Source: a virus
Length of the DNA stretch: 30,167 nucleotides
IMG/VR virus record: IMGVR_UViG_3300006922_002050
Location: 1 to 30,167 of that record
Strand: one strand, 5' to 3'
Below, in pieces: positions 7,553-30,052 of the stretch. The notes under the pieces were generated by a model, which did not search any database, was not told the origin of the DNA, and saw nothing but the letters and a program-made list of their open reading frames with translations. A program made the position numbers and the translations under genes. Position 1 is the stretch's first letter. Each line of letters starts with the position of its first letter.

Positions 7553-8119
7553 TTAAATAAATGTTGCGGGGTCACAATCAGAGTCACTCTCAAAACCAAA
7601 TGAGAATGTGACCCGTGCAGTCTTAGGCTCAATTTGATGCCAAGTTCCTCGAGGAATCCAAACAGCATCTCCAGGCTTCATCATTCTAACATCGTCTCTG
7701 TTCGAAGGCTCTTCTGTATAACCTATCGTAATCTTGACTTCGCTGATAACCTGAACAAGAAAAACATCCATTTTATCTGCATGACGAGGATACGAATCCG
7801 AGTTCTGACCAAAACCAACAAACGCAATGTTAGTAATATTAGGTTGCCCTTTGTCATATTCAAGTTTTTTAGGAGCAGGCAATACAAAGAAGTCATTCAT
7901 ATCTTGCTGAATTTCTTTCGCAAATCGTGGAGCAGAAGGTCTGGAATGACATGAGTTGAGACCAACTCTCTGCTTATCACGATTCCAAGCATATAACTCT
8001 GGTGGATGAGTATCAATAAGACGCATCATCTTGTTCCAATCATAAGACTGTGTATCTGCTTTTGTCCACCAGTGACGCTTATTACGAATGTCTTCAATAT
8101 GGTCTTCGAAGTTAATCAT
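7553..8119 (-). CDS. Cupin/JmjC-like protein
   Basis: A 188-aa protein with a double-stranded beta-helix signature. The metal-binding pair is H113-x-D115 (RHADKMD), followed by KPGDAVWIPRGTWHQ at 148-162 with the distal ligand His161. This fits cupin or JmjC-type 2-oxoglutarate oxygenases, and the PGD-x-WIP-x-G-x-WH segment is typical. The substrate is unknown: JmjC-like enzymes hydroxylate proteins or tRNA bases, while plain cupins bind many ligands. The start overlaps the RegA stop by 4 nt (ATGA), so it is translated with RegA in the replication operon. It is one of four oxygenase-like genes in this window. Confidence 0.7.
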   Translation of the reverse strand: MINFEDHIEDIRNKRHWWTKADTQSYDWNKMMRLIDTHPPELYAWNRDKQRVGLNSCHSRPSAPRFAKEIQQDMNDFFVLPAPKKLEYDKGQPNITNIAFVGFGQNSDSYPRHADKMDVFLVQVISEVKITIGYTEEPSNRDDVRMMKPGDAVWIPRGTWHQIEPKTARVTFSFGFESDSDCDPATFI

Positions 8120-9489: not shown

Positions 9490-9690
9490 TTACCCCCAAT
9501 GTCTGATTACGCCTGCAATAATAAAGAAGCAAGTCAACCAATTGACTAACTGAAGCACTATCTTTATATATAATCCTCGCTTCGCTTGGCGCATGGTCAG
9601 AACAGGAACTTTTGGTTCATCTTCGTCTGTGCGACCAATATAATAGTCAAGTGACCTAGCGAGTATCTTTTCCCAAGTTCTGTATTCCAT
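9490..9690 (-). CDS. 66-aa single-pass membrane protein
   Basis: A hydrophilic N-terminus (WEKILARSLDYYIGRTDEDE) is followed by one likely membrane helix, about residues 42-62 (IKIVLQLVNWLTCFFIIAGV), and a short C-terminal tail. No family is recognised. The start overlaps the preceding stop as TAATG, indicating translational coupling to the nucleotidyltransferase gene. Confidence 0.65.
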   Translation of the reverse strand: MEYRTWEKILARSLDYYIGRTDEDEPKVPVLTMRQAKRGLYIKIVLQLVNWLTCFFIIAGVIRHWG

Positions 9691-10067
9691 TAATCTAATG
9701 TGCCTTCGTCTCTCATTTTTGTTCTAATTTTTGTTGCACTTATACTATGTATTGTAGCACCTAAATCATGTTCTGTCAATGTATATCCTACATTACGTCC
9801 GTAACTAATGTCTACAATATTTGGAACTTTCATAATAGTGTATTCTTTGTTATATGTGTAACCGTGTTTATTTAATTTATCAATAATATTGTCTGCTACT
9901 TGTGCATGTGTAAATGGGTTATCGTCTATACCAAACACATCTCTTATTTGAATACAAACTTGTCCAGTTTTTTCCATTGCACGTTTGAATAATTCAGTGT
10001 GTCCATCATGCCATGGTTGCCATCTACCAAGCATTTGTATAGTAGGCTTTTGCCAATTAAAGTCCAT
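9690..10067 (-). CDS. HxGH nucleotidyltransferase (NMNAT/cytidylyltransferase-like)
   Basis: A 125-aa nucleotidyltransferase-fold protein. The nucleotide-binding motif is H20-D-G-H23 after MLGRWQPW, and the C-terminal ISATKIR at 109-115 matches the ISxTxxR motif of this superfamily. The GRxQPxHxGH form is closest to NMN adenylyltransferases such as NadM and the NadR N-terminus, but the protein is short, so the substrate is open. It overlaps the kinase gene by 11 nt. Together they recall two-enzyme pairs that activate a phosphorylated metabolite with a nucleotide: NMNAT plus kinase in NadR, or ATP sulfurylase plus APS kinase. Confidence 0.7.
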   Translation of the reverse strand: MDFNWQKPTIQMLGRWQPWHDGHTELFKRAMEKTGQVCIQIRDVFGIDDNPFTHAQVADNIIDKLNKHGYTYNKEYTIMKVPNIVDISYGRNVGYTLTEHDLGATIHSISATKIRTKMRDEGTLD

Positions 10068-10488
10068 CGTATTGTTTCCCCATAAATCTATTTACTACAG
10101 GCAACAATGTTTCAGGTGTATTATCAAACCATTTACTAACATGGTAGTCTACATTGTCTGGCGTTTCAAACAAATCGTTTGTGTCTTCAAAACGGCTGCG
10201 AGAAATAGTATCCATCCATACTGTGTAGTCAGGATTAAACTGTAATCGTGCTTCTGAAGTTGGGCACACAAAATCAGCGACTGCAATTTTGCCTGCCATA
10301 ACAACACCGTCTGCTAGATGTTTCATACGCTGTGCTTGTCTCATACGTCCTTCTATGCTGAAGTCCCAATCGTCGTAACGATTGCGTATCTCGTCAGCAT
10401 TAATGTGTATCCCGCCTACTAATTCGGCAAATGGTTTAGCCAGTGTAGTTTTGCCACTGCCAGGCAATCCAAAGATTAATATTTTCAT
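10057..10488 (-). CDS. APS kinase-like P-loop kinase
   Basis: A 143-aa P-loop kinase. Walker A is GLPGSGKT at 7-14. The segment HINADEIRNRYDDWDFS, then a GRMRQAQRMKHLADG helix and VADFVCPTSEARLQF, resembles adenylylsulfate kinase (CysC). The start at 10488 is chosen because MKILIFGLPG begins at the first beta strand and AAGGA precedes it; the open frame extends to 10560 without homology. Sulfate activation is the family reaction, but other small-molecule or nucleic-acid 5'-kinase roles are possible. It is paired with the nucleotidyltransferase that follows. Confidence 0.75.
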   Translation of the reverse strand: MKILIFGLPGSGKTTLAKPFAELVGGIHINADEIRNRYDDWDFSIEGRMRQAQRMKHLADGVVMAGKIAVADFVCPTSEARLQFNPDYTVWMDTISRSRFEDTNDLFETPDNVDYHVSKWFDNTPETLLPVVNRFMGKQYDGL

Positions 10489-10504
10489 AAGTTTGATTCC
10501 TTTG

Positions 10505-10594
10505 CTACTTCCTACGTTTAGGAATCTCTTGAACATCACCGAAATAAATGAACACTCCAATAAGAATGAGCGTTCCGATATAAACTATCCACAT
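10505..10594 (-). CDS. 29-aa membrane microprotein coupled to gp44
   Basis: A short ORF reading MWIVYIGTLILIGVFIYFGD and then VQEIPKRRK: one hydrophobic helix (about residues 2-18) followed by a basic tail, a positive-inside topology. The start overlaps the gp44 stop as TAATG, the coupling seen repeatedly in this window. Its stop is 16 nt before the next gene, and AAAGGA lies in that gap. No family is recognised. Confidence 0.6.
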   Translation of the reverse strand: MWIVYIGTLILIGVFIYFGDVQEIPKRRK

Positions 10595-15854: not shown

Positions 15855-15883
15855 ATTATACCACAATTCCAGTAAAAAGTCAA
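15855..15883 (-). promoter_or_regulatory. Sigma70-type promoter of gp47 operon, leaderless spacing
   Basis: On the minus strand: TTGACT (15883-15878), a 17-nt spacer, consensus TATAAT (15860-15855), then AAAAGA and ATG at 15848. The TGA in the -35 is the gp55 stop codon. Confidence 0.9.
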
Positions 15884-16473
15884 GAGATAAAATCACTCAA
15901 GTCAGAGTCAACATTGACTGCTCGACGTTTGCGTTCTTTCTTGACAACCTCTTTCCAGAAGGAGTCTTTCTCTTTGACTTCATCAATCTTAGAGCGAAGC
16001 GAGTCAACAAAGGCTGCCGCGACATTTGCAGACTGTGCATCGCCGAGTTCATTATCAAGAAAGTTCTCAATGCCTGACTGCTCAATATATCTCATCTTAA
16101 TATCTTGTTGCTTCTTCTCACGCTCGATGCGGCGTAGAAATGCATACCACGAAATCTGTGTGAAGTATGCAAACGCATTTGGTTTCCCTGTGCGTGTCGC
16201 CGCTTCGATATCATAGTTCTCTACAGCTTTCAGACAGTTCTCAACAGCATCCATTACCATCTCGTCACGATACGAATAGCGCACGAAATTAGACTTGTGG
16301 GAGAGTCCTTCACAAATCTTAAGGAAACACATAGCGATATAATCAGGCACTTTAGGCAACGGCTCCTGTGTCTTCTTGGCTTCATTCAATACTACTACAT
16401 AGTCTACAATTGCTTGCGAGAACTGTGCATTATTTACATAGTGTGGTTTATCTTGTGGTTTTATTTTACTCAT
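15880..16473 (-). CDS. 55: Late transcription sigma factor gp55
   Basis: Directs host RNA polymerase to TATAAATA late promoters, activated by gp45. The 197-aa product matches T4 gp55 (185 aa) in YVNNAQFSQAI, ICEGLSHKSNFVRYSY, MDAVENCLKAVENYD, PNAFAYFTQISWYAFLRRIE and the following basic stretch. The ATG at 16473 is preferred over an adjacent GTG at 16476. It overlaps the cytidylyltransferase 3' end by 8 nt. Candidate targets in this window are the late promoters at 25194-25201 and 30045-30052. Confidence 0.93.
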   Translation of the reverse strand: MSKIKPQDKPHYVNNAQFSQAIVDYVVVLNEAKKTQEPLPKVPDYIAMCFLKICEGLSHKSNFVRYSYRDEMVMDAVENCLKAVENYDIEAATRTGKPNAFAYFTQISWYAFLRRIEREKKQQDIKMRYIEQSGIENFLDNELGDAQSANVAAAFVDSLRSKIDEVKEKDSFWKEVVKKERKRRAVNVDSDLSDFIS

Positions 16474-16894
16474 CACTAACTTTCATTTTGTTTCTCAGTT
16501 GACTGCTTGCAAACCGATGATGTCTACTATTATAATATATTTCAATGCCATTGTCAAGACAATACTGCTTTCCTGTATAATCTTTTTCACGATACTCGTC
16601 ACCGATGATACGAACATTGAAGTCTAACAACTGCATCAAGTCTAGTAAATCTTCTTCTGTCTCGTATGGAATAATCTCATCGATATATTTACATCCGCTC
16701 AGTTGTATATATCGCTCTACTACCGACTGGAGTGGTGCGTTCTTTTCTGGTCTATCAATCTGCGGATTTGTTTGAAGAGCCGCAATGAGATAGTCACATT
16801 GCTTCTTGGCTTCTTCGAGCATTGCTACATGTCCTGCATGAAATAAATCGAATGCTGAACAGGTTAAACCTTTTTTTAAATTAGTGCTTGACAT
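16466..16894 (-). CDS. Cytidylyltransferase-like protein (TagD/RfaE type)
   Basis: A 142-aa nucleotidyltransferase with the H19-A-G-H22 motif in FDLFHAGHVAMLEEAK, typical of glycerol-3-phosphate cytidylyltransferase and the RfaE C-terminal domain, and a C-terminal SSQLRNK at the place of the usual RTxGISTT-type motif. It probably joins CTP or ATP to a phosphorylated alcohol or sugar. It is the last gene before gp55 and lies 51 nt after the first oxygenase-like gene. The substrate cannot be told from sequence. Confidence 0.8.
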   Translation of the reverse strand: MSSTNLKKGLTCSAFDLFHAGHVAMLEEAKKQCDYLIAALQTNPQIDRPEKNAPLQSVVERYIQLSGCKYIDEIIPYETEEDLLDLMQLLDFNVRIIGDEYREKDYTGKQYCLDNGIEIYYNSRHHRFASSQLRNKMKVSDE

Positions 16895-16945
16895 ATTATG
16901 AAATCCATGATATAATTAAAGAGTTCTTTGAGGGCAGGTAGAATA

Positions 16946-17584
16946 CTACTTTTTCTTTCCTTGAATACCATCGACATACAACCATGATTTAGGATTGAAT
17001 GTCGTAGCATATTTAGTTTGAAAGTATCTGTCGTTCTTATCGTCAGTAACATTTCTGTCTGGAATTATTGCATCTACACTACCTGCAAATCCATATCTAA
17101 TGTCACTTGTCTTGGCTGTATGCTTTGTGTATCCAGGAAACATGACAATCATACCTCGTTCGGGATATACACTGTAATTATCCATATCGTTGAACACTAA
17201 AGGGTCAACTGCATCCATATAATAGACAAATGAGAGAAAGTGCGGCCAGTGAGTGTGCGTTCTTGCATCGTGATTGTCGCCTAAAATTTTATAACCCCAC
17301 ATCTCAGTCATATAGAACTCATCACAATTATTAAAACCCAAAGCCCTTCTGTCATTCTGAACATATGTGCGAACATACTCTCTCGCCATCTCAAGTGCTT
17401 TGTCATGAATTGGCTTTGTTTCAGGAAAGTTCTTATACATTCTTTCGTGTGTTGTATATGCTGTAGAGTTGCCAACTGAATTTGCATATCTGTCAATGAT
17501 TGCCATCAGATGTTCGTTATCAATATCATCCTCAGAGATATGGTCAATCATAACCAGTTCATCAAATTTAGATTCATGCCACAT
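16946..17584 (-). CDS. 2OG-Fe(II) oxygenase-like protein, paralogue A
   Basis: A 212-aa protein with a double-stranded beta-helix-type core: an HTHWPHFLSFVYYMDA block, then YPERGMIVMFPGYTKH and a final RYGFAGS. The paired His in H-x-H-W, the distal His and the late Arg fit the metal and 2-oxoglutarate sites of phage 2OG-Fe(II) oxygenases of the TIGR02466 type. It is the third of three tandem paralogues that share this block and overlaps paralogue B by 11 nt. It has the longest C-terminal extension (about 35 aa, ending QGKKK). The substrate is unknown. Confidence 0.65.
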   Translation of the reverse strand: MWHESKFDELVMIDHISEDDIDNEHLMAIIDRYANSVGNSTAYTTHERMYKNFPETKPIHDKALEMAREYVRTYVQNDRRALGFNNCDEFYMTEMWGYKILGDNHDARTHTHWPHFLSFVYYMDAVDPLVFNDMDNYSVYPERGMIVMFPGYTKHTAKTSDIRYGFAGSVDAIIPDRNVTDDKNDRYFQTKYATTFNPKSWLYVDGIQGKKK

Positions 17585-18146
17585 ACTGAAGACTTCCTGC
17601 TAATACATATCTAGTGTTACTCGTAGCGACCTTTACTTGATGAAATACATTGCCTCGGAACATAAGCATGAGTCCTGGTTCAGGTTTTACCTCAAGGTCA
17701 AGATATGGGAAATAGATAGGGTCTGACGCATCCATATAATAAACGAAAGTCAGCATGTGCGGCCAATGATTATGAGGCACACCTTCAAAGCCATCTACAA
17801 TCTTATAACCCCACAGTTTATGAACAGCAAGTTTACTACCTTCACGATTTGCATATGGCGGAACATTCTCAATCTTATTGACGACAGCATGACCAGAATC
17901 TTCCCAGTGCTTGAAGTAAGTCTCAAGCCACTTATGTCCCATCTCAACTGCGGCATCACAAACACTCTTGGTCGTAGATGCATGTGCTATGTGCAAGTCG
18001 TCATTTGTGATGTGATTGTTACCAAATTTAGGGTTCTTCTTCACATTACAAGAAATATTATCTAGAAGAACAATCAACGCATCATCGTCATAGAGATTGA
18101 CATTCTCTTTTAAAATCAGTTCTTTTTCATTACAATTATAAAACAT
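17574..18146 (-). CDS. 2OG-Fe(II) oxygenase-like protein, paralogue B
   Basis: A 190-aa paralogue of its two neighbours. The core reads HNHWPHMLTFVYYMDASDP, then PEPGLMLMFRGNVFH and RYVLAGSL, with the same H-x-H-W, distal His and Arg pattern. The start overlaps the stop of paralogue C as TAATG, so the three genes are translated together. An N-terminal segment of about 90 aa (HIAHASTTKSVCDAAVEMGHKW) is shared in outline and probably forms the helical cap seen in such oxygenases. Confidence 0.65.
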   Translation of the reverse strand: MFYNCNEKELILKENVNLYDDDALIVLLDNISCNVKKNPKFGNNHITNDDLHIAHASTTKSVCDAAVEMGHKWLETYFKHWEDSGHAVVNKIENVPPYANREGSKLAVHKLWGYKIVDGFEGVPHNHWPHMLTFVYYMDASDPIYFPYLDLEVKPEPGLMLMFRGNVFHQVKVATSNTRYVLAGSLQYVA

Positions 18147-18754
18147 TATACAATAGACTTATCGTTTAGAAACTTCTTAGGAAAGAAATCGTTTTGATTA
18201 GACACTTTATGTCCTGTAGCAAAAGACTTATCGAAGTTCAATGAGCCTGAAACTAAGTATCTGTGTGTCGTAGGATTATCTGCCTCGTGATTTAAATGTC
18301 CGCGCCACAGATACATATCGCCTGCTTTTGGATATATGTAGTGGTCAAGTTCAGCAAAGTATAGTGGGTCACAATCGTCAAAGTAATATGCGAACACGAA
18401 GTCTGCCGGCCAATGTTCATGCTTTCCTAGACCTTCGCCTGGATAGATATGAAAGCCCCACATGCTTGTTAATTTTACTTGAAGAACATCAAGTGGCGTA
18501 AACTGCTTACAGTAGTTCTCTTGAGCCGCATAGAATTCTTTGCCCCATTGCTTAGTGAGTGCTTCTGCGGCTTCGACAATAGGTTGTGTCTGCTCGAAAT
18601 TTTCGTGAAGTCTATCATGAGTCGCAATGCTCTGTTTGTCGGGATTTGGTTTATGTCCCCACTTATCGATAACCATAATCAAGAAATCGTCATTTGGACA
18701 ATCTACTGTTGTATGAACAATACATTCAGGTCCTGCTGAATAATCAAGTATCAA
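18146..18754 (-). CDS. 2OG-Fe(II) oxygenase-like protein, paralogue C
   Basis: A 202-aa paralogue, the most diverged of the three. The core is KHEHWPADFVFAYYFDDCDP, then YPKAGDMYLWRGHLNH and HRYLVSGSL. The start is a TTG at 18754 that overlaps the preceding TGA (TTGA), with AGAGGA 7 nt upstream. No ATG lies near, and the paralogue lengths support this start. An unusual TTG start coupled to the Lsm-like gene may lower its output. Confidence 0.62.
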   Translation of the reverse strand: MILDYSAGPECIVHTTVDCPNDDFLIMVIDKWGHKPNPDKQSIATHDRLHENFEQTQPIVEAAEALTKQWGKEFYAAQENYCKQFTPLDVLQVKLTSMWGFHIYPGEGLGKHEHWPADFVFAYYFDDCDPLYFAELDHYIYPKAGDMYLWRGHLNHEADNPTTHRYLVSGSLNFDKSFATGHKVSNQNDFFPKKFLNDKSIV

Positions 18755-19236
18755 TGTATAGTCCTCTTGCCTGGGTCAAACTTTAGAATATTGTTATCTC
18801 CACTATCACCCTCCATTTGAGAGAGAACTTCTTTTTCTTCTTTAGAGGCTTGTTTCAGAAACTCTTGCATCTTCTCTGTCATCGTCTGTGTTTTTTCGCC
18901 AGTCGTTTCTTCGTGTTCTTTCATGCGCTCATCATATGATAAAGCCATTTCGTCAACTGCTTCCTTCCATTGCTTCACTAACGGCGGTGCTGGTTCAACA
19001 ATACCTACAACGTGCTGACCATTTAGAATAACGAACTCATCAGGATTCTCGGCATAGACCAGCCATGGTCGAAATGCATAATAACGAACACCTGTTTCCA
19101 TTTCACCCAAAGAGAGTCTCATTGGTTTTCGAATAACAAGTTCGAGTTCTTCTTCGTTATGCCATTGAACAATCTCGCAAACAATCTCTTCACCACTTGC
19201 CAGTTTAAACTGTCTTAATTCATATTGATTACTCAC
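18751..19236 (-). CDS. Lsm/Hfq-like N-terminal domain protein, conserved in T4-like marine phages
   Basis: A 161-aa protein. Residues about 6-80 look like an Sm-type small beta barrel (FKLASGEEIVCEIVQW, then LELVIRKPMRL and YYAFRPWLVY, and FVILNGQHVVGIVEP). A charged helical tail rich in Glu and Lys follows. It starts with GTG at 19236, overlapping the radical SAM stop by 8 nt (GTGAGTAA) with GGAG and AAAGG just upstream. RNA binding is the usual role of Lsm folds, but this is fold-level inference. Confidence 0.5.
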   Translation of the reverse strand: MSNQYELRQFKLASGEEIVCEIVQWHNEEELELVIRKPMRLSLGEMETGVRYYAFRPWLVYAENPDEFVILNGQHVVGIVEPAPPLVKQWKEAVDEMALSYDERMKEHEETTGEKTQTMTEKMQEFLKQASKEEKEVLSQMEGDSGDNNILKFDPGKRTIH

Positions 19237-20935
19237 GACCTTTTCTCCAGTCTTGTTCTAGTTTCATCTTCTTGTATTTAGCGATGTGCTTAATGATTGG
19301 TTTATGGTCTTTCTTCTTAGGATTATTGTGAAAATACTTTCTAATCTCTGTGTCACGATTCTTACCATAGTCTGTAGCAAGTGGTACATGAATACGAAAG
19401 CATGTTTCTGTCTGCGCTCCTAAATCTGCTCGTTGTCTTAAAAATTCACCGCCCCATTCAATGACATCAATCATATCGTATTCGTCAGATGGATGTCTCC
19501 ATAGAGTTCCATCGTTTAGATAATCTCTGTTTCTAAATCTTCGATTCATGCTGAACCAGAATTTAGTTCCTTTGTCGAGAAACATGTGTTGTATCTCTTC
19601 TTTGGTATAGAAGTAATATTCTGACTTGCCATATCTTTCTACTTCACGACCTGATGCGAGAGTGCCACCCATGTTTGATAAGTCAAACTTCTCGAAGTCA
19701 TTGTTCTTTGCTGGATTGATATCAAGAGTTCCCATACCAACTCGCTGATGAATCCAGTTTTTATTTAGCCAGTCTGCTGTATCGTCTAGACTGTCCATAC
19801 TTTCTTCTTCAAGACCTGTAATGAATGTTGACGAGCCACAATATGCTGTTGGTGCTTTCTCCATAAAGTATTCTTGCACTTCAAGTAACTTGTCTTTCAC
19901 TTTATTGGGATGCATACCTTTACCAATAATCTTACCTGCTTTGTGATTGAATGTCTCTAGACCATAATGATGAGCAGTAAATCCCGCTTCAATCATGTGG
20001 TCCCAAGTTTCTTTGCCGTGTGTCACAAGCATGTCAAACCTTGCATAGCCGCCGAGAAATGGCTGGAACGGTAACTTTCGTGCTACCTTTGCTATCATTT
20101 CCATCTTCTCTGGTCGGTCGTTTACAGTGTCGTCAGACAGATAATAATTCTGAATGCCCCATCTCTCATAATTCTCCATCATCTCTGTGTGAAGCGAAGT
20201 CTCTTCACGAGTCGTATCTTCTTTCATACCAATCAATGGATACATACAGAACTTACATGTAAAGCGACAACCTCTCGATAGTTCAAGCACAAGATACTCA
20301 TATGGTTGAATGTAGTCACGCTCTTCATACGAGATGTTTGCGTCTCTTTTAGGATAACACTTATGAGTATGAACTGCGTCTATCAGATAGCCTTCTTTAC
20401 CATTCACATTTGTTACTTTGTGAATATGCTCAATCTCGTCAGAGTAACCAGTATGTTTATTCAGAATGGCTTCCATTGCAAATTCAGCATTGCCTAGAAC
20501 CCAGTAGTCGCAATCAATATCTCGCAATGAGCGACCATACCATCCACCCGCGATATGAATTACATGAGGATGCTTGTCTCTGATATATTGAATTACTTTG
20601 TTGACATACTGAGGAACACCATCAGTCATTGAGAATACTACACTCCAGCCGCAGAAGACTGTATCTTTTGTTATTCGCGTATCGATGTAATCTATAATCT
20701 CATCCCAGTCGAACTCGGTCATATAATCTAGAACTTCACAATCCCAGTTCTTCTTTCGAAAATAAGTTGCAAGTTTGTGATTACCAGTTCCGCGGTGATA
20801 TATCATAGAAGCCTGTTCTTCTAGAATATCACCTTGATAGGGATTACCTGTTGCTTGTGTATCCGAAAGGCCAAATGCGACATTACCTAGTTTGGGATAG
20901 AAACCACCAAAAAAGAGACCGTGTTTATTAGACAT
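19229..20935 (-). CDS. Radical SAM protein with B12-binding-like N-terminal domain, copy 1
   Basis: A 568-aa protein. Residues 1-160 resemble the cobalamin-binding Rossmann domain of class B radical SAM enzymes (VFCGWSVVFS, VIHIAGGWYG, YWVLGNAEFAMEAIL) but lack an obvious DxHxxG cobalt-ligand motif. The [4Fe-4S] motif C223-x3-C227-x2-C230 lies in LSRGCRFTCKFC, followed by YYLSDDTVND and HHYGLETFNH as in the radical SAM barrel. A C-terminal basic tail follows. It overlaps copy 2 by 8 nt (ATGTCTAA). Compared with copy 2 it lacks a C-x2-C near 192 and a 9-aa insert near 315. The reaction may be a methylation or other radical modification; the substrate is unknown. Confidence 0.82.
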   Translation of the reverse strand: MSNKHGLFFGGFYPKLGNVAFGLSDTQATGNPYQGDILEEQASMIYHRGTGNHKLATYFRKKNWDCEVLDYMTEFDWDEIIDYIDTRITKDTVFCGWSVVFSMTDGVPQYVNKVIQYIRDKHPHVIHIAGGWYGRSLRDIDCDYWVLGNAEFAMEAILNKHTGYSDEIEHIHKVTNVNGKEGYLIDAVHTHKCYPKRDANISYEERDYIQPYEYLVLELSRGCRFTCKFCMYPLIGMKEDTTREETSLHTEMMENYERWGIQNYYLSDDTVNDRPEKMEMIAKVARKLPFQPFLGGYARFDMLVTHGKETWDHMIEAGFTAHHYGLETFNHKAGKIIGKGMHPNKVKDKLLEVQEYFMEKAPTAYCGSSTFITGLEEESMDSLDDTADWLNKNWIHQRVGMGTLDINPAKNNDFEKFDLSNMGGTLASGREVERYGKSEYYFYTKEEIQHMFLDKGTKFWFSMNRRFRNRDYLNDGTLWRHPSDEYDMIDVIEWGGEFLRQRADLGAQTETCFRIHVPLATDYGKNRDTEIRKYFHNNPKKKDHKPIIKHIAKYKKMKLEQDWRKGRE

Positions 20936-22667
20936 AGTTCTCTGGCGCCCACTCTTGACTTAGTTTAAACTCTTTATATTTTTTAATATGACTTACAACT
21001 GGTCGTGGATTTTTCTTTTTTGGATATCGCTGAAAATACTTCTTCATCTCAGTGTCACGTTTTTTACCCCAGTCTACCAAAAGTGGCATGTGCATACGGA
21101 AACAAGTCTCGCCTGTAATACCCATATCATCCCTGCTTCCGATAAACTGTTGAGTGAACTCAACGGCATCAATCATGTCATAGTCATCAGACGGATGCCT
21201 CCAGATTGTTCCATCTGTTAGATAGTCTCTGTTTCTAAACTTCTTGTTAAGATGGAAGAAATACTTTAGTTCGTCTGTGAAGAACATATGGTCAATATCA
21301 TCTTTAGAATAGAACTTATAATTTGATTGACTATATCTTTCTACTTCACGACCACTCACAAGTTTACCTGACATATTAGATAAGTCAAACTTTTCAAAGT
21401 CGCTGTGACCACAGTGATTAATATCAAGAACGCCCATACCAATTCTTTGAACTGTCCAGTGTTTATTAACCCATTCTTGAGTCTCATGCAAACTTTCAAT
21501 ACTTTCTTTCTCTAGACCTGCAATGAATGTAGAACCGCCCGAATAAGCAGTTGGCGCCCGCTTCGTAAAGTATTCTTCAATCTCTAGCATTCCATCTTTG
21601 ACTTTATCGGGATGCATACCTTTACCGATAATCTTGCCAGCATCATGATTAAATGTCTCGATACCATAGTGATGTGCTGTGAAGCCAGCTTCAATCATAT
21701 GGTCCCAGATTTCATACTTACCATACGGACCAAACTCACGACCATGATTGATTATCAAATCAAGTCTAGCGTAACCACCAAGAAATGGTTGAAACGGAAG
21801 TTTTCTTGCGACTTCGCCAAGCATCACCATCTTCTCTGGTCGGTCGTTTACTGTATCATCAGATAGATAATAATTTTCTACGCCCCATCTCTGGTAGTTC
21901 TCCATCATTTCATTATAGAGTGATACCGGGTCTCGGGTCGTATCTTCTTTCATGCCAATAAGTGGATACATGCAATACTTACACGCAAATCTACAGCCGC
22001 GTGATAGTTCCATTGACAGACATTCGTATGGCTGAATACCATCACGTTCTTCGTAAGATATGTTCGCATCAGGTTTTGGAAAGCACTGGTGACATTTACT
22101 ATGAACTGCATCGATGACATAACCCTTTTTGCCATTGATGTTTGTTACAGGATGAAGATGTTCAATCTCATCTGCATAGCCTGTGTGCTTCTTCAGAATG
22201 GCTTCGATTGCAAATTCACCATTACCCATAATCCAGTAATCGCAATCAATGTCCTGTAATGCTCTACCATACCATCCACCTGCAATATGAATTACATGAG
22301 GATAATGCTCACGAATATAAGCGATAATTCTATTGACATGACTAGCAGAAGTCCCTGCGAGAGTAAACACAACACTCCAACCACAGAAGACTGTATCTTC
22401 GGTGATGCGTGAGTCAATATACTCTGCAATTTCATCCCAGTCAAATTCTGTCGTATAATCAAGACACTCAATGTCCCAATTACTCTTACGAAGATATGTT
22501 GCAATTTTATGATTACCAAACGAGCGAAAGAGTGCCATCGAAGCAATCTCTTCGAAGTAATCACTCTTGTATGCGTTACCTGTTCCGTTTGTTTCGTATC
22601 CTGGAACCCCAAACATTACATTACCAAGTCTAGGGTAGAATCCTCCGAACATAAGTCCGTGCTTCAT
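20928..22667 (-). CDS. Radical SAM protein with B12-binding-like N-terminal domain, copy 2
   Basis: A 579-aa tandem paralogue of copy 1. The radical SAM cysteines are C225, C229 and C232 in LSRGCRFACKYC. The N-terminal domain (GLMFGGFYPRLGNV, FCGWSVVF, IAGGWYGRAL) matches copy 1; residues 61-100 differ at 8 of 40 positions. It carries an extra C192-x2-C195 in HSKCHQCFPKPD and an insert GREFGPYGKYE. The start overlaps the UvsW stop by 4 nt (ATGA), tying this accessory island to the uvsY-uvsW operon. Function beyond the superfamily cannot be assigned. Confidence 0.82.
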   Translation of the reverse strand: MKHGLMFGGFYPRLGNVMFGVPGYETNGTGNAYKSDYFEEIASMALFRSFGNHKIATYLRKSNWDIECLDYTTEFDWDEIAEYIDSRITEDTVFCGWSVVFTLAGTSASHVNRIIAYIREHYPHVIHIAGGWYGRALQDIDCDYWIMGNGEFAIEAILKKHTGYADEIEHLHPVTNINGKKGYVIDAVHSKCHQCFPKPDANISYEERDGIQPYECLSMELSRGCRFACKYCMYPLIGMKEDTTRDPVSLYNEMMENYQRWGVENYYLSDDTVNDRPEKMVMLGEVARKLPFQPFLGGYARLDLIINHGREFGPYGKYEIWDHMIEAGFTAHHYGIETFNHDAGKIIGKGMHPDKVKDGMLEIEEYFTKRAPTAYSGGSTFIAGLEKESIESLHETQEWVNKHWTVQRIGMGVLDINHCGHSDFEKFDLSNMSGKLVSGREVERYSQSNYKFYSKDDIDHMFFTDELKYFFHLNKKFRNRDYLTDGTIWRHPSDDYDMIDAVEFTQQFIGSRDDMGITGETCFRMHMPLLVDWGKKRDTEMKKYFQRYPKKKNPRPVVSHIKKYKEFKLSQEWAPENYV

Positions 22668-24145
22668 TTTAGATTAACCTGATGTATCTTGTAAGGAAAC
22701 TGTTCTTTAGTATATATCTTAATTCTTTCTGCACTGTGACGTAGAGTAAAGTTCTTATGCGACTTGATATGTAAGTCGTCTGCAATGTCATAGAGTTGTG
22801 TTGTCGAGCCATCATCGCTCTGACGTAGACCACGACCTATTGATTGCAGGACTTTAACCTGAGACTTAGAAGGACTAGCAAAGACAATGTTATGCAGATT
22901 CCTAATGTTGATGCCTGTGCTAAAAGTGCCAAGTGATGCGACGATGATAGCATTCTTTTGTTTCTCCACGATTCCACGAATCTGTTCTCTGTCAGATGCA
23001 TCGACTTCACCCGACACATAGTATACGGGTCTGTCGCCTGCTCTGTCTTTAATCATATCATATAATGGTTTGCCATGCTTCTCCACAAACTGAAATAATA
23101 CCAGACTGTTCCCAGTTTGGTCAAGAGCAAGGTTTGTGATGAGGCGATTGCGCTTCTCATTTGTGACAATGTAATCTATCTCTTCTTGATATGTTGCGTC
23201 TTTCAATTTATGACAGACATCGTTATGATATCGTAATAGTAAGACAGAGATATTTAGTTTTGCAAGTGTTCCTTTCTCTTGCAAATCTCGTGTCATAGTG
23301 ACGCGCTTTGTAGGTCCAAATAGTCCCTCAAGCACAAGTTTGTTTGTCTCTGTGCCATCAAGTGTGCCTGTCGTTCCAAAGCGATACTCAGCGTTGACGC
23401 ATTTGTTCATAATACCAGACAACGACTTTGCTTTGAAGAGATGCACTTCATCTCCAAACACACAGCCGATATTCTCAAACCACTCTTTGGGAAACTTATA
23501 GATTGACTGCCATGTCGAGATGATAATCTGTTTGTCTGTCGTCTTATCTTTACCAGAGTAAATCTTATGACACTCAGCCTCTACGTCAAAGCCGTAGTCT
23601 GCAAAGTCTTTATACATCTGTTCGACTAGACTTGTAGTAGGAACAACAATGAGTATCTGTTTATCATAGTTGTCCATATACCAACGAAGTAGATTGTAGA
23701 TGATAAACGATTTACCTGAACCTGTAGGTGACAACAACACAGCACGTTTGTTCTCAATGCCGTGAGTCACAGCATCATACTGATAGTCACGCAACTCATA
23801 TGGCATCTTCAGGTCGCTTTGAAACTTGACGAGGTTCTGATGCTGAACGTGGTTCTTTTTTGCAGGATGTCCGAACTCAGTTTCTTGCAGTTGCAACGGA
23901 TACATTCTATCTTGACAGAACTTCTTCAGATGCTCATACAGACCAACGTTCAGTTCACGAGTGACTTGATTGAAGAGTTTGATTTTGCCGTCCCATTTAC
24001 GTGCCTTATACATCGGCATCCATTTGTAACCAGGAGCAAAGAATGAAAAGTATTCTCTCAATTCTGGTAACTGATGTATCTCACAATCAATGAGCATCAT
24101 AGAGTGGTCTTTAAGACCAACAGTAATGGTATTAGGTAAAGTCAT
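22664..24145 (-). CDS. uvsW: UvsW DNA helicase
   Basis: Superfamily 2 helicase that unwinds R-loops, reverses forks and shifts T4 from origin to recombination-dependent replication. The 493-aa length is near T4 (503). An N-terminal DNA-binding domain (YKARKWDGKIKLF) precedes Walker A SPTGSGKS at 139-146, DEVH at 232-235, GTTGTL, a late TFSTGINI, and QSIGRGLRQ as motif VI. It follows UvsY by 15 nt. A 5-bp hairpin (24154-24168) with the UvsY stop in its loop sits in that gap. Confidence 0.96.
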   Translation of the reverse strand: MTLPNTITVGLKDHSMMLIDCEIHQLPELREYFSFFAPGYKWMPMYKARKWDGKIKLFNQVTRELNVGLYEHLKKFCQDRMYPLQLQETEFGHPAKKNHVQHQNLVKFQSDLKMPYELRDYQYDAVTHGIENKRAVLLSPTGSGKSFIIYNLLRWYMDNYDKQILIVVPTTSLVEQMYKDFADYGFDVEAECHKIYSGKDKTTDKQIIISTWQSIYKFPKEWFENIGCVFGDEVHLFKAKSLSGIMNKCVNAEYRFGTTGTLDGTETNKLVLEGLFGPTKRVTMTRDLQEKGTLAKLNISVLLLRYHNDVCHKLKDATYQEEIDYIVTNEKRNRLITNLALDQTGNSLVLFQFVEKHGKPLYDMIKDRAGDRPVYYVSGEVDASDREQIRGIVEKQKNAIIVASLGTFSTGINIRNLHNIVFASPSKSQVKVLQSIGRGLRQSDDGSTTQLYDIADDLHIKSHKNFTLRHSAERIKIYTKEQFPYKIHQVNLK

Positions 24146-25178: not shown

Positions 25179-25208
25179 AAACTCCTATAGTGCTATTTAT
25201 AAGAGTTT
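25179..25208 (-). promoter_or_regulatory. Hairpin switch hiding the ribosome binding site in read-through RNA
   Basis: Arms AAACTCTTATA (25208-25198) and TATAGGAGTTT (25189-25179) pair over 11 positions, with one G-U, around an 8-nt loop. The GGAG of the downstream gene is in the 3' arm. The late promoter lies in the 5' arm and loop, so late RNA starts near 25188 and lacks the 5' arm. This mirrors the T4 gene e and soc arrangement. Confidence 0.75.
25194..25201 (-). promoter_or_regulatory. T4-type late promoter TATAAATA before tail tube gene
   Basis: A perfect TATAAATA on the minus strand, 18 nt before the gp19-like ATG, expected to be read by RNA polymerase with gp55. Predicted start near 25188, leaving AGGAG in a short leader. 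Confidence 0.88.
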
Positions 25209-29821: not shown

Positions 29822-30039
29822 TATGTTAATTCCTTTATTACTTTCATAGCAGACCTTTCTGCATCTTTCTGTGATTTGAAAGCGTCCAGTCGGTCGCCAT
29901 CAATATACACAACAAAAGGCAGAGTGCCCTTCTCCTTAGTGATTAGGACAGGGATTCTTTTGACCTTTTTATCGAAGACCACTTCACCTTTTGGTTTGCG
30001 ACCCTTGAGTTCACTAAGAAGTTCTTTATATGTTTTCAT
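29821..30039 (-). CDS. 72-aa hypothetical protein upstream of gp21 (head-core position)
   Basis: A small basic protein starting MKTYKELLSELKGRKPKGEV, with a strand-rich middle (RIPVLITKEKGTLPFVVYIDGD) and a helical end. It is in the position of T4 gp67/gp68 (small prohead core proteins), but no sequence similarity is seen, so the role is inferred from location only. The late promoter is 5 nt before its ATG, with no ribosome binding site. Confidence 0.68.
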   Translation of the reverse strand: MKTYKELLSELKGRKPKGEVVFDKKVKRIPVLITKEKGTLPFVVYIDGDRLDAFKSQKDAERSAMKVIKELT

Positions 30040-30044
30040 AACTT

Positions 30045-30052
30045 TATTTATA
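30045..30052 (-). promoter_or_regulatory. T4-type late promoter with leaderless spacing
   Basis: A perfect TATAAATA on the minus strand, then AAGTT and ATG. With the T4 start site 6 nt after the box, the RNA would begin at the A of the start codon. Confidence 0.85.

Follow-up and report, generated by a model that had tools for sequence, protein, structure and literature searches.

Of the auxiliary genes of marine phages that lack an explanation, those for radical SAM (rSAM) enzymes and 2OG oxygenases are some of the most frequent. In pelagimyophages, rSAM cassettes distinguish close relatives; rfaE, UDP-glucose dehydrogenase (ugd) and glycosyltransferase genes are also described, and O-chain modification was hypothesized for the rfaE/ugd genes (PMC7029224). 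The T4-like virus TARA_ERS488813_N000010 has 12 rSAM genes (PMC5332604), and rSAM genes are enriched alongside glycosyltransferases in Tasman Sea phages (PMC7150976). The locus described here shares with the pelagimyophage cassettes and TARA_ERS488813_N000010 a marine T4-like background, rSAM genes, an rfaE-like transferase, UDP-glucose dehydrogenase and variability among near relatives. It differs in that the accessible portions of these two papers (PMC7029224; PMC5332604) concern a host-recognition cluster or a gene count only, and report no slot between uvsW, an Lsm-like gene and gp55, no rSAM-oxygenase coupling and no swapping. A search that covered neither preprints nor subscription journals found no paper on this locus or on such coupling or swapping. 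The original prediction that no such system is known is therefore only partly right, as rSAM/sugar cassettes as such have been described in marine T4-like phages.

At the protein level, the closest characterized enzymes are the class B rSAM enzymes TsrM, OxsB, TokK, CysS, MgmA, AprD4 and PhpK (TIGR04479), which combine a B12-binding-like N-terminal domain with a SAM barrel containing CX3CX2C, and the 2OG-Fe(II) oxygenases of PF13759/TIGR02466 and of PHROG 81 of cyanophages, a type common in marine phages. The genomic framework is that of C48C1, Synechococcus phage S-PM2, Methylophilales phage Melnitz and Pelagibacter phage Mosig (Kyanoviridae), with which the locus has the core order uvsY-uvsW-Lsm-gp55-gp47-gp46 in common. 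Unlike the locus, however, these four phages lack rSAM genes, and none of them has an oxygenase gene in the uvsW-gp55 interval; in Mosig, oxygenase genes are scattered over the gene block at positions outside this interval.

Organization of the Locus

The DNA analyzed (hereafter the window) is an IMG/VR virus record (Table 1). As predicted, seven open reading frames lie between uvsW and gp55, all on the minus strand, and most of the junctions overlap by 1–11 nt. The overlaps are 4 nt (ATGA) between uvsW and rSAM1, which confirms the proposed link of uvsW to the block, 8 nt between rSAM1 and rSAM2, 8 nt between rSAM2 and Lsm, 4 nt between Lsm and oxA, 1 nt between oxA and oxB, 11 nt between oxB and oxC and 11 nt between CTt and gp55; the sole gap, of 51 nt, separates oxC from CTt. 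Three contigs of the same phage in IMG/VR (L003, L004, and L124), assembled from two other metagenomes, overlap the block at 99.4–99.9% DNA identity. Given its presence in these independent assemblies, the block is not an assembly artefact.

Table 1. Coordinates of the window, the slot genes and the core genes that border the slot.
Feature	Position	Strand	Remarks
Whole window	30,167 bases		IMG/VR virus record
uvsW helicase	22664..24145	-	Left core border of slot; phrog_16 4e-108
rSAM1, class-B-like radical SAM enzyme, 579 aa	20928..22667	-	PF04055 6e-16, PF02310 9e-6
rSAM2, rSAM1 paralogue, 568 aa	19229..20935	-	PF04055 4e-15, PF02310 2e-3
Lsm-like protein, 161 aa	18751..19236	-	phrog_527/471/431
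oxA, 2OG-Fe(II)-oxygenase-like, 202 aa	18146..18754	-	phrog_81 9e-12
oxB, 2OG-Fe(II)-oxygenase-like, 190 aa	17574..18146	-	phrog_81 5e-8
oxC, 2OG-Fe(II)-oxygenase-like, 212 aa	16946..17584	-	phrog_81 3e-12, PF13759 6e-4
CTt, HxGH cytidylyl/adenylyltransferase (RfaE domain II / TagD / ECT-like), 142 aa	16466..16894	-	PF01467 9e-12, phrog_7878 4e-33
gp55 late sigma factor	15880..16476	-	Right core border of slot; phrog_234 8e-51

The early to middle expression also proposed for the block is hypothetical. Late-promoter-like sites (TATAAATA) occur three times in the window, compared to 1.04 expected by chance, and none of them falls within 16466–24145. One, at 25194–25201 (-), is directly upstream of the gp19 open reading frame (start 25175), and another, at 30045–30052 (-), is directly upstream of an open reading frame with its start at 30039.

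Elsewhere, the window contains sugar-type genes for a UDP-glucose dehydrogenase (ugd), an epimerase and a methyltransferase. A JmjC-type (PF08007-like) protein, a further 2OG-oxygenase candidate, is encoded between hsp20 and regA at 7553–8119 (-). At 9690–10560 (-), a kinase gene (PHROG 10255) is divided into two overlapping open reading frames of 167 and 125 aa that correspond to its N- and C-terminal halves, either because the gene is naturally split or through a frame error; in L234, a homologue of the first half is placed between uvsW and Lsm.

The Radical SAM Proteins

Both rSAM1 and rSAM2 belong to the radical SAM superfamily, with 59.5 and 56.8 bits, respectively, to PF04055 (Radical_SAM; cut-off 29.5), and have the cluster motif in the SAM barrel. 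The two proteins are 68% identical, and CX3CX2C is intact in both. In 51 of 51 homologues the three cysteines of this motif (C225, C229, and C232) are invariant, and the invariant residues include RGC-F-C--C and GxE. The dN between rSAM1 and rSAM2 is 0.23 with saturated dS, indicating purifying selection. The matches of both to PF02310 (B12-binding) are sub-threshold. The AlphaFold model of rSAM1, made with 51 viral homologues (pLDDT 82.9, pTM 0.87), contains the barrel at ~215–415, preceded by a predicted B12-binding-like Rossmann domain (~1–190) that matches OxsB, TsrM and AprD4 at the level of fold, and followed by a helical C-terminal part. Foldseek matched the model to MgmA, OxsB, TsrM and AprD4 at 11–15% identity. 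The window proteins differ from the class B enzymes by this low identity and by a long C-terminal part of their own, and their use of cobalamin is putative. One of the top matches by TM score, AprD4, catalyzes a dehydration rather than a methyl transfer, and the position aligned with GGPH/GGPQ of TokK/CysS holds a different sequence in the window rSAM family.

No named equivalog fits these proteins: PhpK, HpnJ, BchE and the other B12-rSAM models of NCBIfam were all missed, and the best score, 43 bits to PhpK, is far below the cut-off (600). Neither protein matched any PHROG. Among 50,697 GenBank phage records, rSAM1 had no close homologue at E < 1e-5 and rSAM2 had merely four weak matches, all to unrelated rSAM proteins. 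The rSAM homologue of L064 used as a query for close homologues also returned none. As a profile built from only the two window proteins retrieved the same phage and nothing else, a motif-based DNA pattern was used instead.

The Oxygenase-Like Proteins

The matches of oxA, oxB and oxC (OX) to PHROG 81 are clear (3e-12 to 5e-8), while those to Pfam are weak, the best being that of oxC to PF13759 (E = 6e-4; 20.5 bits versus a cut-off of 27). The three proteins are 29–33% identical to one another, and HxHW, the second H and R are kept across them. In oxC numbering, H110, H112, H155 and R163 are invariant, with HxH as in 2rg4. The AlphaFold model of oxC (pLDDT 77.3, pTM 0.79) has a double-stranded beta-helix fold, like the structures of PF13759, and its Foldseek matches include 3bvc, PHD2 and prolyl hydroxylases. 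The OX proteins resemble PF13759/TIGR02466 in the HxH, second H and R residues and in fold, but differ in falling under the Pfam and NCBIfam cut-offs, in being a divergent triplicate and in being tied to rSAM alleles (see below). None of these genes appears to be dead, as the putative metal- and 2OG-binding residues are present in all three OX paralogues and the cluster motif is intact in each rSAM.

The suggestion that both gene types were expanded by duplication is confirmed by trees, in which the window rSAM pair and the OX triplet each form their own clade with 100/100 support and are thus lineage-specific duplications. Recent tandem duplication as the general origin of rSAM pairs holds for the window and fails for L133, whose two rSAMs are in different clades.

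Content of the Slot in Marine T4-Like Phages

In all, 138 loci with both borders complete were compiled from two uvsW scans of viral contigs, from reference phages and from rSAM loci found previously. Some of these are overlapping pieces of one contig, and a deduplicated set of 111 gave the same picture. The uvsW-Lsm-gp55 order is near-universal in the 138 loci and is found in C48C1, Mosig, Melnitz and S-PM2. The region is therefore a fixed insertion slot with modular content inside the replication/late-transcription core of a marine T4-like (Kyanoviridae-like) lineage. The variable part comprises one or two class-B-like rSAM genes between uvsW and Lsm and zero to three OX genes between Lsm and gp55. 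Plain uvsW-Lsm-gp55 accounts for 67 loci, CTt alone for 14, an unclassified gene for 10, OX-CTt without rSAM for 10, rSAM-Lsm-OX for 10, rSAM-Lsm-OX-CTt for five, rSAM-Lsm for four and rSAM-Lsm-OX-OX-CTt for four. The smaller classes include the window (two rSAM, three OX, CTt) and L317, which has an rSAM gene on each side of Lsm.

For two of the seven genes, membership of the predicted unit was rejected or not supported. Given its fixed place in nearly all the viral contigs surveyed, the Lsm-like gene (PHROG 471/527), which corresponds to "methylamine utilization", T4-GC 139, and interrupts the rSAM/OX genes, belongs to the core gene set of marine T4-like phages (Kyanoviridae) and lies outside the module. 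CTt occupies the Lsm-gp55 slot independently: it is the sole occupant in the 14 loci noted above and, in the close-relative set, was associated with neither rSAM nor OX, so that its membership was not supported. CTt passed PF01467 (CTP_transf_like; 45.7 bits versus 21) but was under the cut-offs of the specific families TIGR02199 (58.5 versus 181.5 bits) and TIGR01518 (54.1 versus 165.4 bits). Its PDB matches are ethanolamine-phosphate and glycerol-3-phosphate cytidylyltransferases, and homologues were found in 119 phage records. In another phage group (L246, L249, L254, and L281), the Lsm-gp55 slot contains a conserved protein of 210–212 aa that matches no window protein.

OX genes were present in 21 of 27 loci with rSAM versus 11 of 111 without. 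Among deduplicated close relatives the proportions were 12/16 and 7/18 (Fisher p = 0.037). Partial sets occur in both directions, with OX lacking rSAM in 11 loci and rSAM lacking OX in six. The original prediction had named relatives with these genes single and scattered as evidence against a system. rSAM alone, OX with CTt but no rSAM, and CTt alone were all observed, and the oxygenase genes of Mosig are scattered; the slot relatives, on the other hand, all use the same slot.

Replacement of rSAM and OX Alleles

In relatives that are 97–98% identical in uvsW, the rSAM and OX homologues are just 41–58% identical. L125, L132, and L142 are near-identical in uvsW (97–98%), Lsm (94–96%) and gp55 (97–100%), while their rSAMs are 47–58% and their OX proteins 42–48% identical. 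For L125 and L132, identities of 98% (uvsW), 94% (Lsm), 97% (gp55) and 99% (gp47) contrast with 47–50% (rSAM) and 42–46% (OX), and dS values of 0.29, 0.41, 0.42 and 0.14 for the same core genes contrast with saturation for rSAM and 2.05 for OX. The L132/L142 and L125/L142 pairs show the same contrast; across the three phages, dS is 0.12–0.42 in core genes, and saturated or about 2 in rSAM and OX. Along the slot, DNA identity is 93–100% at the 3′ end of uvsW, where it drops to 41–70%, and is 41–74% over rSAM, 85–100% over most of Lsm, 44–68% over most of OX and 87–100% at gp55, with sharp changes at gene borders.

Since dS is at or near saturation in rSAM and OX, whereas the flanking genes and the intervening Lsm gene have low values, the rSAM and OX genes of these near-identical phages have been replaced by divergent alleles through homologous recombination; fast evolution or positive selection as the cause of their divergence is rejected. 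Within one allele type (L132/L134), dN/dS is about 0.07 for rSAM and about 0.04 for OX, which indicates purifying selection. In a related 144-kb contig, the rSAM gene is broken (L138 6662–8300; a 399-aa open reading frame, with the match resuming in another frame), by a sequencing error or as a pseudogene.

Coupling Between rSAM and OX

If rSAM and OX cooperate, the similarities of their alleles should agree beyond the genome background. Partial correlations of BLAST identities given gp55 and Lsm were calculated over deduplicated related loci. The rSAM-OX correlation was 0.72 (p about 0.0005, n = 14), 0.60 after removal of near-duplicates (p = 0.003, n = 11) and 0.44 after removal of both near-duplicates and the window (p = 0.005); since the sample is small (10–14 loci), its members are related and the effect is smaller without the window, this evidence is good but not final. 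The control values given gp55 were 0.01 for rSAM-Lsm and 0.12 for OX-Lsm. The rSAM and OX genes co-occur, and their alleles co-vary although the intervening Lsm gene does not, which supports a coupling of rSAM and OX beyond mere neighborhood. The multi-gene system originally predicted stands to this extent, but not as a unit of seven genes.

Possible Function of the Module

The rSAM and OX genes probably constitute a swappable chemical-modification module. Our preferred, though tentative, interpretation is that they form one tailoring pathway under diversifying selection, whose substrate would most likely be a surface glycan, a nucleotide sugar or a lipid-like compound. The working unit would consist of one or more rSAMs and one or more 2OG-oxygenase-like enzymes, encoded on either side of the core Lsm gene. 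The rSAM would act first at an unactivated carbon, through a radical reaction such as methylation or dehydration/deoxygenation, as known from its structural neighbors TsrM, OxsB, AprD4 and MgmA, and OX would then hydroxylate or further oxidize the same substrate. This substrate may be made with the UDP-glucose dehydrogenase, sugar epimerase, methyltransferase and CTt of the window, where CTt, when present, would supply an activated precursor without being obligatory. The product would change the surface of the infected cell or a phage component. Diversity would be favored through a role of the product in encounters with the host, with rival phages or with host defence, and such host or phage pressure for many alternative chemistries could account for both the allele swapping and the duplications. 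The swapping suggests that the product matters for phage-host or phage-phage conflict rather than for housekeeping.

The tailoring interpretation is supported by the modularity of the slot, the replacement of alleles, the rSAM-OX coupling and co-occurrence, the recurrence of rSAM with 2OG-type genes in other viral groups (see below), the sugar genes of the window and the O-chain proposal of PMC7029224. It is weakened by the partial sets in the slot, by the absence of a glycosyltransferase gene next to the module in the window's lineage and by the neighbors of the bacterial homologues (see below). A more specific possibility, which we consider doubtful, is a serotype-like polymorphic chemistry locus, in which divergent alleles of a bipartite rSAM and OX module would be exchanged together under balancing selection and each phage would apply its own modification to a common target. 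A fixed slot with paired allele swaps amounts to a natural experiment, since a comparison of matched alleles could reveal the substrate that each pair shares.

A serious rival, though rather unlikely, is that there is no system at all and that the slot collects unrelated auxiliary genes with separate jobs, their co-occurrence reflecting shared ancestry. The single genes and partial sets, the scattered oxygenase genes of Mosig, the lack of association of CTt with rSAM and the presence in the slot of CTt, a kinase-like gene (L234) and further unrelated genes are all consistent with such a collection; yet the identities of rSAM and OX vary together more than the core genes account for, the intervening Lsm gene does not follow them, and rSAM with 2OG-type oxygenase recurs in unrelated viral groups.

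Modification of a macromolecule (protein, ribosome or tRNA), by an rSAM resembling MgmA, RimO or MiaB and an OX resembling the EF-Tu and ribosomal hydroxylases, would tune host translation or a virion protein, and is likewise a serious but rather unlikely rival. Ranked by E-value, the Foldseek matches are headed by the protein glutamine methylase MgmA, with MiaB/RimO following, PHD2 and the EF-Tu prolyl hydroxylase are among the matches of the oxygenase model, and the JmjC-type protein (7553–8119) is encoded nearby. However, these fold matches are generic (10–15% identity), Pfam reported no TRAM or UPF0004 domain of the MiaB/RimO type, and so varied and frequently swapped a set of alleles would be unexpected if the translation target were conserved. 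Nucleobase modification of phage DNA against host restriction would fit the location in the replication block and an arms race of alleles with restriction systems, but is very improbable, as the oxygenases match PF13759/PHROG 81 rather than the TET/JBP families, the slot has no base-hypermodification partner gene, and a search of a library of known defence systems matched nothing past generic rSAM/2OG models.

Wider Occurrence of the rSAM Subfamily

Members of this rSAM subfamily are common among uncultivated phages. Tandem pairs or triples are found in L021/L064, L091, L148 and L152. In L064, L091 and L017, the rSAMs are grouped with PF13759- or OX-type oxygenases, a methyltransferase or other rSAMs; the rSAM is beside a PF13759 protein and a methyltransferase in L064, and beside PF13759 in L017. 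In nine loci of another viral group (L147–L150, L152, and L154–L157), the order glucosaminidase, one to three rSAMs, Asp/Asn hydroxylase (2OG-type) and GT2 glycosyltransferase is conserved. Bacterial relatives are rare and mostly from MAGs. A Gammaproteobacteria MAG contig (L180) has six rSAM genes of the family in 17 kb with an adjoining AMP-ligase-like gene, and several of these rSAMs are paired with a ~200-aa protein of no Pfam family. Other bacterial homologues adjoin carrier-protein, AMP-ligase-like or desaturase genes, and these bacterial neighbors point to acyl or carrier-bound substrates as well. In a related 144-kb phage, an rSAM-SPASM gene is near a carbamoyltransferase gene (L312 6460–9959; contig G001, ~72.4–76.0 kb), which is another possible tailoring cluster.
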